Shown here: positions 31,065 to 62,886 of the stretch, piece by piece
Layout: each line of letters starts with the position of its first letter
How positions within the stretch are numbered: the stretch's first letter is position 1
Source of the DNA: Actinomycetota bacterium
GTDB lineage: Bacteria > Actinomycetota > Acidimicrobiia > IMCC26256 > PALSA-555
Length of the DNA: 64,000 nt
Assembly: GCA_016870355.1 (NCBI GenBank)
Contig: VGBR01000001.1
Span: forward strand, 121,574-185,573
Reading direction: 5' to 3'
Translations under genes and position numbers: made by a program
The notes under the pieces: model-generated
What the model saw: the letters and a program-made list of their open reading frames with translations, nothing else
Databases searched by the model: none
What the model was told of the DNA's origin: nothing

Positions 31065-33563
<2,499 letters not shown>

Positions 33564-33588
33564 TCGGCGCGCGCTCGGCGCGCGTCGA

Positions 33589-33594
33589 TAGCGT
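33589..33594 (+). promoter_or_regulatory. -10 box for the LppM-like gene
   Basis: TAGCGT, 6 nt before the proposed ATT start codon at 33601. The spacing equals that of other leaderless-type genes in this window. Confidence 0.4.
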
Positions 33595-33600
33595 CCGACC

Positions 33601-34548
33601 ATTCGCTGTCGCCACGCGCTCGCGCTCCTGCTGATCGTCGGGATCCTCACCGGCTGCACGGTGAGCGCGACCGTCGACGTGCGCATCCGCGAGAACGGCT
33701 CGGGCGTGGTGCGAGTGCTCGTCGAGATCGACGCGTCGGCGCTGAAAGCCGTCGAGTCGGGTGGAGTGCCACTCGAGCAGGCGGTGCGCCTCGATGACCT
33801 CACCAGCGGGGGGTGGGACGTCGGACCCTGGGTGCGCGCGGAGGACGGCTCCGCGACGATCACGCTCGCCAAGCCGTTCGACGCCGTCGAGCAGGTCGCC
33901 GACATCGTCACTGAAGGTGGCGGCCAGCAAGGACCGCTGCGCGAGGTCGAGGCAACCCGCGAGTCTGGGTTCCTCGCTACCGAGTACTCGCTGACCGGCG
34001 ACATCGATCTCGAGAGCGTGACCACCGGCCTCCAGAACGATCCCGAGCTGCTCGCCAACCTGACCGCGCAGAGCGTCGACCCGGCGGTGATCGACCAGCA
34101 GCTGCTCGCGCAGGTGAAGGCGTCGTTCGCACTCGACGTCGTCGCGCGACTGCCGGGCTCGCCGGCGCAGCGCACGAACGCGAAGCCAGGCGCGGTGACG
34201 TCGATCAGCTCAACGGCGAGTGTGCGCAACTCGACCCGCTTGCTGTTCTTGGGGGCGGCGGCCCTGCTCGCACTGCTCGCGATCGTGCTGTGGTTCTGGC
34301 GGCCGCGGAAGAAGCGCCCCAAGCCCACGCCACGCACGAAGCCCGGTCCCCGCGGCGGACCACCGCGTCAGCGCGTCCCACGTCCGCACCTGCCCGAGCA
34401 CATGCCCCGCCCACATCTACCCGAGCACATGCCGCGGCCGCACTTGCCCGAGCACCTGCCGCACCCGCATCTTCCCCGACGTTCACGTCCCGACGGACCA
34501 CCACCTCCACCAAGGAAGCCGCCGATGATCCCGCCGGGGATGACCTAG
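33601..34548 (+). CDS. LppM-like lipoprotein (DUF3153) with a proposed ATT start
   Basis: 315-residue protein if begun at ATT 33601: the N-terminus is then a textbook lipoprotein signal, RCRHALALLLIVGILTGC, with the lipobox LTGC. The first GTG (33661) starts after that cysteine and would leave no signal. TAGCGT stands 6 nt before the ATT, and an in-frame stop lies 12 nt upstream. The exported domain (SGVVRVLVEIDASALKAVES) resembles mycobacterial LppM. A transmembrane helix (LLFLGAAALLALLAIVLWFW) follows near residue 226, then a basic cytoplasmic tail. The tail holds 9-residue repeats (RPHLPEHMP). The family call is moderate; the start is an inference. Confidence 0.68.
   Translation: MRCRHALALLLIVGILTGCTVSATVDVRIRENGSGVVRVLVEIDASALKAVESGGVPLEQAVRLDDLTSGGWDVGPWVRAEDGSATITLAKPFDAVEQVADIVTEGGGQQGPLREVEATRESGFLATEYSLTGDIDLESVTTGLQNDPELLANLTAQSVDPAVIDQQLLAQVKASFALDVVARLPGSPAQRTNAKPGAVTSISSTASVRNSTRLLFLGAAALLALLAIVLWFWRPRKKRPKPTPRTKPGPRGGPPRQRVPRPHLPEHMPRPHLPEHMPRPHLPEHLPHPHLPRRSRPDGPPPPPRKPPMIPPGMT
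34381..34480 (+). repeat. 27-bp in-frame tandem repeats (RPHLPEHMP)
   Basis: Three full units at 34381-34407, 34408-34434 and 34435-34461 and a partial fourth. They encode a proline/histidine-rich tail after the membrane helix. Synonymous differences between units show the duplication is not recent. Confidence 0.85.
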
Positions 34549-62400: not shown

Positions 62401-62472
62401 CGCGTCCGGGTCCGCATCTCGCCTTGTGTCCGCGGGTACAACTGCTCGATCGAAGAGCGGCGGATCTGCTCG

Positions 62473-62886
62473 GTGGTGCTCCACAAGTGGGGTGATTACA
62501 AGCCGGTCCTGCCCGCGGCCACGCTCCAGTTCCTCGACCGAGAGCCCTATCTCGATGCGGCGCGTGCGGACGCTCGAGTCCGTGACGAGATGGTCATGGG
62601 CCTCTTCGCCGACTTCGAAGCCGAGTTCCGCGAGCCCGTCCTCACCGACGTCGACCAAGAGCTCGTCACGGTCTGCCCACCGCTGATGCGCCAGATCGTC
62701 GAGCCTGAGGTGCCGCGCATCCAGCGGGCCTACGTCGAAGGCGCGTTCATGCGCCGCATGTTCCGTCTCCTCGTCGAAGGTGAAGGATGGGAAGCCGACG
62801 CGCAGGTGCGTGACGTGATGGCCCGCCACTTCCCGTTCCACCTCGTGGCCGTCGAGGCGGTCGAGCGCACGCCCGCCGAGTCGTGA
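62473..62886 (+). CDS. hypothetical protein
   Basis: 137-residue protein, cytoplasmic and helical in appearance, with no signal peptide or membrane segment. VLHKWGDYKPVLPAATLQFL begins it, and FMRRMFRLLVEGEGWEAD and ARHFPFHLVAVEAVER lie in the C-terminal half. No motif is recognised. TACAAC at 62437-62442 could be a -10 box; the GTG start lacks a clear purine run. Base composition and codon use resemble the neighbours, so it is probably a real gene. It lies between groEL and hemQ on the same strand. Confidence 0.65.
   Translation: MVLHKWGDYKPVLPAATLQFLDREPYLDAARADARVRDEMVMGLFADFEAEFREPVLTDVDQELVTVCPPLMRQIVEPEVPRIQRAYVEGAFMRRMFRLLVEGEGWEADAQVRDVMARHFPFHLVAVEAVERTPAES

Follow-up and report, generated by a model that had tools for sequence, protein, structure and literature searches.

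Isoleucine codons are known as translation starts from infC, the gene for initiation factor IF3, which begins at AUU, AUA or AUC.

In Staphylococcus aureus, cvfC1 (AUU) and ccpN (AUA) rely on extended Shine-Dalgarno (SD) sequences (PMC13009471), and in Streptomyces the sigR gene starts at GTC and is repressed by IF3 (PMC5472188). IF3 acts against non-canonical starts, leaderless mRNAs and SD-less reinitiation (PMC2268962). Two published findings count against an ATT start on a leaderless mRNA: leaderless mRNAs of Escherichia coli require AUG (Van Etten and Janssen 1998, by the account given in the review PMC9031893), and neither ATT nor ATC was enriched in Ribo-RET data from Mycobacterium tuberculosis (PMC9094748). 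In view of these two findings, a natural leaderless AUU gene, if true, would surprise specialists, and we found no such case in the literature among open-licence papers. How start codons are chosen on leaderless mRNAs is little understood; a leaderless gene with AUU or AUC, if real, would break the E. coli AUG rule and provide a simple test system for that choice.

Here we describe a lipoprotein gene that may be of this kind, in a window of 64,000 nucleotides (the whole stretch of DNA that was analysed) from G000, the genome of an uncultured actinobacterium of the class Acidimicrobiia. This genome was sampled as stretches that together cover about 1.0 Mb of 2.8 Mb.

A candidate ATT start ahead of a lipoprotein signal

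The features of the gene, all on the forward strand, are as follows.

33601-33603, +, putative start codon ATT and putative transcription start (from the sequence, the ORF call and orthologs)
33601-34548, +, lipoprotein ORF; counted from ATT as the putative start, 315 codons and a stop (from orthologs and dN/dS)
33604-33657, +, lipoprotein signal with an RCRH n-region, a hydrophobic stretch and the lipobox LTGC
33661-33663, +, GTG, the first canonical in-frame start, rejected because it lies past the invariant lipobox Cys

In the lipoprotein reading frame, positions 33589-33606 are TAG CGT CCG ACC ATT CGC, continuing TGT CGC CAC GCG CTC, and the peptide RCRHALALLLIVGILTGC is encoded from 33604, immediately 3' of ATT. 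The complete signal that follows ATT is IRCRHALALLLIVGILTGC; it ends in the lipobox, whose Cys codon (33655-33657) lies 18 codons after ATT. No ATG, GTG or TTG occurs in frame from the TAG at 33589 to this Cys, and the first canonical start, GTG 33661, stands two codons past the Cys codon, where the ORF call (33661-34548) begins. No SD sequence, and so no strong SD that might compensate for a weak codon, is seen before ATT 33601 in G000.

An initial sequence-only reading had described a complete lipobox signal in this frame, ATT as the sole codon before the basic residues, and an in-frame stop four codons upstream, and each of these points holds; the stop, TAG 33589, also forms the first three bases of a -10 box. 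A frameshift or hidden upstream start, named there as grounds for abandoning the idea, is not found in G000, where that TAG precedes ATT by four codons. Frameshifting or read-through from the upstream gene clpC is ruled out in G000, where the two genes use different frames and the TAG lies between them. On the best-supported reading of the sequence, ATT 33601 is the only plausible start ahead of the intact signal. Gene callers that admit only ATG, GTG and TTG will shorten such genes or overlook them; in this case, beginning at GTG 33661 would delete the entire lipoprotein signal.

Conservation of the gene and its product

The lipoprotein gene lies downstream of clpC in 46 of the 58 genomes of the order, and the relatives compared share about 70% protein identity or less. 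The lipobox Cys is unchanged in all 19 aligned orthologs. Against the same-genus genome G001, dN is 0.25 and dS 1.09 (dN/dS 0.23), and the differences fall mostly in third codon positions (58/42/120 by position). These patterns indicate that the gene is under purifying selection and that the signal is part of it. Given this dN/dS and the invariant Cys, GTG 33661 is ruled out as the start, which confirms the earlier objection that it would drop the lipobox and its Cys.

The protein has the n-region, h-region and lipobox with invariant Cys expected of a bacterial lipoprotein, followed by a predicted extracytoplasmic domain, a C-terminal transmembrane helix and a basic tail rich in His and Pro. 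The structure model has a pLDDT of 89.9. Searches of Pfam, NCBIfam and the PDB, the last by sequence and by fold, gave no confident family, and a profile of the LppM/DUF3153 type (DUF3153) weakly matched one of 19 members (E=0.01). We propose that gene 33601-34548 encodes an envelope lipoprotein. The C-terminal tail, at 34360-34545 of the window, carries repeated RPHLPEHMP units and varies among same-genus orthologs.

Start codons in orthologs

An alignment of relatives, which the sequence-only reading had suggested as a check, places ATG, GTG or TTG at the equivalent position in most species, 15-30 codons ahead of the lipobox Cys, and ATC or ATT in six. These six of the 41 readable orthologs (a count uncorrected for kinship, G007 and G009 being close) have no canonical start and one suitably placed isoleucine codon (ATH), at the following distances before the Cys.

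G000, ATT, 18 codons
G001, ATC, 30 codons
G007 and G009, ATC, 20 codons
G050, ATC, 17 codons
G023, ATC, 26 codons

Within genus g5 the exchange can be read directly, with CCC ATG GCG CGA CGG in G010 and ACG ATC GGG CGG CGG in G007 and G009; G011, of the same genus, has ATG 26 codons before its Cys. G002 and G003, which belong to the genus of the window, have GTG codons upstream in the lipoprotein gene, and the 16-nt segment holding the first of these is missing from G000 and G001. In the orthologs of G005 (L006) and G013 (L104), no canonical or ATH codon stands where it could serve as the start. G016 was left out of the ATH set since it has ATG and the automatic listing had mis-parsed its lipobox, and G015 gave no lipobox match in the start-codon script. 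The gene thus shows the features expected of an AUH start of the infC and pcnB kind: no usable canonical codon in frame, an ATH codon in the right place, and a start position conserved with canonical or near-canonical codons in relatives.

A putative leaderless promoter and the clpC boundary

Three features upstream of ATT bear on how the gene is transcribed.

31065-33563, +, clpC (Clp ATPase; Pfam Clp_N, AAA_2, ClpB_D2-small and UVR), the conserved upstream neighbour, with stop TGA at 33561-33563 (from Pfam and the ORF)
33563-33589, +, 12-bp G+C hairpin with loop TCG, directly after the clpC stop (RNA fold of 33560-33599, -22.5 kcal/mol)
33589-33594, +, -10 box TAGCGT, sharing its TAG with the in-frame stop (scored 9.9 by the PWM at 6-nt spacing; null probability 0.001)

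A -10 model was learned by EM from ATG and GTG genes in about 0.64 Mb of G000. It has the form T-A-(G/C)-n-n-T at spacings of 6-9 nt, with a peak at 6-7 nt, and applies to about 26% of 503 genes. The box TAGCGT, followed by the six nucleotides CCGACC and then ATT, reaches a score that just 0.1% of non-start positions in the vicinity of gene starts attain, and boxes this strong at leaderless spacing precede 11 of 59 window genes. The resemblance to other leaderless genes claimed in the sequence-only reading stands up to scoring. By the marks of a leaderless gene, the -10 box lies at the expected 6-9 nt from the start, and the start codon itself is ATT rather than AUG or GUG. Inspection of the sequence found no -35 element, which is normal here because a -35 consensus is absent across 174 strong leaderless sites of this genome.

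The arms of the hairpin (33563-33574 and 33578-33589) reach into the -10 box. Inspection found no T-run after it, so it is not a classical terminator; it may nevertheless separate the clpC and lipoprotein transcripts, and it makes simple coupling of the two genes less likely. In G003 (L005) the stretch that separates the lipoprotein gene from clpC contains a tandem array with a unit of about 13 bp, CACTAGAAACACC.

A -10 box that fits the consensus and stands at the expected distance, together with the 12-bp hairpin, supports a leaderless lipoprotein mRNA. Of the original proposal of a leaderless ATT start, the start codon is the best-supported part; the putative leaderless status has the support of the -10 spacing and the hairpin, and ATT at 33601 is known from a single MAG.

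We also considered an ATT start on a read-through mRNA spanning clpC and the lipoprotein gene, with initiation by termination-reinitiation or de novo rather than on a leaderless transcript. The lipoprotein gene adjoins clpC, whose stop is 37 nt upstream of ATT, and four of the six ATH orthologs (G007, G009, G050 and G023) have their ATC without a leaderless -10 box, which makes the non-canonical starts of this family independent of leaderless mRNA; in G023 an AGGAG lies 8 nt before the ATC. In G000, however, ATT has no SD before it, the hairpin stands between the genes, and a consensus -10 box sits at leaderless spacing, and we regard read-through as unlikely.

Other probable ATC starts and the genome background

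A further gene of the window has a non-canonical start.

62449-62886, +, gene of a protein family without a name, start ATC 62449-62451 (ATC in G000-G003 and G006, GTG in G008, ATG in G005)

Five species from two genera share this ATC, and the IEERRIC that comes after it is conserved as well. In their first seven codons, the genes of G000, G001, G002, G003 and G006 vary at synonymous third positions alone, the codons upstream are unconserved, and no in-frame canonical start lies upstream in G000 and G001. G008, of the same genus as G006, has GTG at the ATC codon behind nearly the same upstream sequence (GTGCACACTGGGGTC before GTG, GGTCCACACTGGGGT before ATC), and G005 has ATG there, behind TATGGT. 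The -10 boxes of this gene are weak by the model, so the ATC start is more secure than the putative leaderless status.

A PAS-GGDEF gene of G000 (C1:340201-341256, minus strand; L110) reads TACCGT, 7 nt, ATC. Its ortholog in G001 (L111) reads TAGCGT, 6 nt, ATC, where TAG stops the frame four codons earlier and the first dozen codons include no canonical one; CTG with GAGG upstream in G001 and GTG in G000 are possible alternative starts. The positive control, infC of this order (loci L082-L094), begins with ATA or ATC, in most cases preceded by an SD. Among the records compared, L033 (CAMDCC010000017.1), titled Bifidobacterium breve, groups with this Acidimicrobiia genus, and its title looks wrong.

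Conservation upstream of the first canonical start proved too noisy as a screen, as antisense ORFs and upstream DNA align too, and was replaced by shared-start, coding-boundary and -10 tests. A screen of 0.64 Mb of G000, covering 582 genes whose coding signal was good, listed 27 with no canonical start near the coding boundary. Read by eye, most of these have one slightly farther off, and the clear cases left are the lipoprotein gene and two possible CTG starts. A HIT-family gene and an MFS gene (G000 C1:334251 + and C2:35857 +) seem to start with CTG, each beside a stop codon that lies upstream. At 6 of 41 (kinship uncorrected), the frequency of ATH starts among the lipoprotein orthologs is thus well above that of the genome at large. 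Taken together over 1.2 Mb, ATC and ATT show no enrichment at leaderless spacing from -10 boxes (ATC, 4 observed against 13.8 expected; ATT, 1 against 1.2), and this tally rules out general use of these codons as starts in this genome. As far as these sequences indicate, leaderless ATT and ATC starts are rare and exceptional and do not amount to a second code. For three further leaderless ATC candidates (C2:287845, C5:15187 and G001 C2:153518), nearby GTG or ATG starts were judged by eye to be the explanation.

These data also bear on whether the codon is in truth ATG (or GTG), the T of ATT being an assembly error or a minor strain variant. ATT is one base from ATG, it comes from one MAG and most orthologs are canonical; yet errors cannot account for every ATC seen in this role in five further genomes of the order and at gene 62449 in five assemblies, which leaves this explanation rather improbable. 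Since several orthologs and at least one other gene of the same genome use ATC, the ATT start is probably a real means of low expression rather than a sequencing slip.

That the gene is decaying after loss of its start, or begins at GTG 33661 as the first canonical codon or at a CTG inside the signal, is very improbable, as the invariant Cys and lipobox precede the GTG, the ORF is intact with dN/dS of 0.23, and a CTG start would strip the charged n-region.

A model for weak initiation

Building on the observed anatomy of the locus, its conserved signal, the lack of a canonical start, the recurrence of ATH codons in orthologs and the promoter match, we favor, with some confidence, a leaderless mRNA on which AUU initiates weakly, giving low output that is probably sensitive to IF3. 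RNA polymerase would use the -10 box just past the clpC hairpin, and the transcript would begin at or very near A33601. A 70S ribosome would then place initiator fMet-tRNA on the AUU at the 5' end, with pairing at two of the three bases and a mismatch at the third. Because of this third-base mismatch initiation should be weak, and the lipoprotein would therefore be made at a low level; repression by IF3 would be expected, as for infC with AUU, AUC or AUA and for Streptomyces sigR with GTC. Since IF3 acts on both features, a leaderless AUU gene should be doubly IF3-sensitive and weakly expressed. The transcription start, fMet at AUU, the low output and control by IF3 are what we infer. A more tentative and rather doubtful extension is that in this Acidimicrobiia lineage the lipoprotein gene, gene 62449 and the PAS-GGDEF gene form a leaderless AUU/AUC set that, with infC, is co-tuned by the level of IF3.

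Comparison with known systems

The lipoprotein gene resembles infC in its isoleucine start codon, which in infC of this clade is ATA or ATC. In contrast to infC, which has a strong SD (GAGGTGAT), it has no SD and looks leaderless. With pcnB of E. coli (AUU) and cvfC1 and ccpN of S. aureus it would share a weak start, outside infC, that holds expression low (PMC13009471); the S. aureus genes, however, have extended SDs, and none is seen before the lipoprotein ATT. Streptomyces sigR is likewise an actinobacterial gene whose non-canonical start holds expression low, although that start is GTC, not ATT, and the word leaderless does not occur in PMC5472188. Mycobacterial leaderless genes, a class common in the phylum, are alike in that the transcript is expected to begin at the start codon; their starts are RUG (AUG or GUG), whereas those considered here would be AUU or AUC (PMC9094748).
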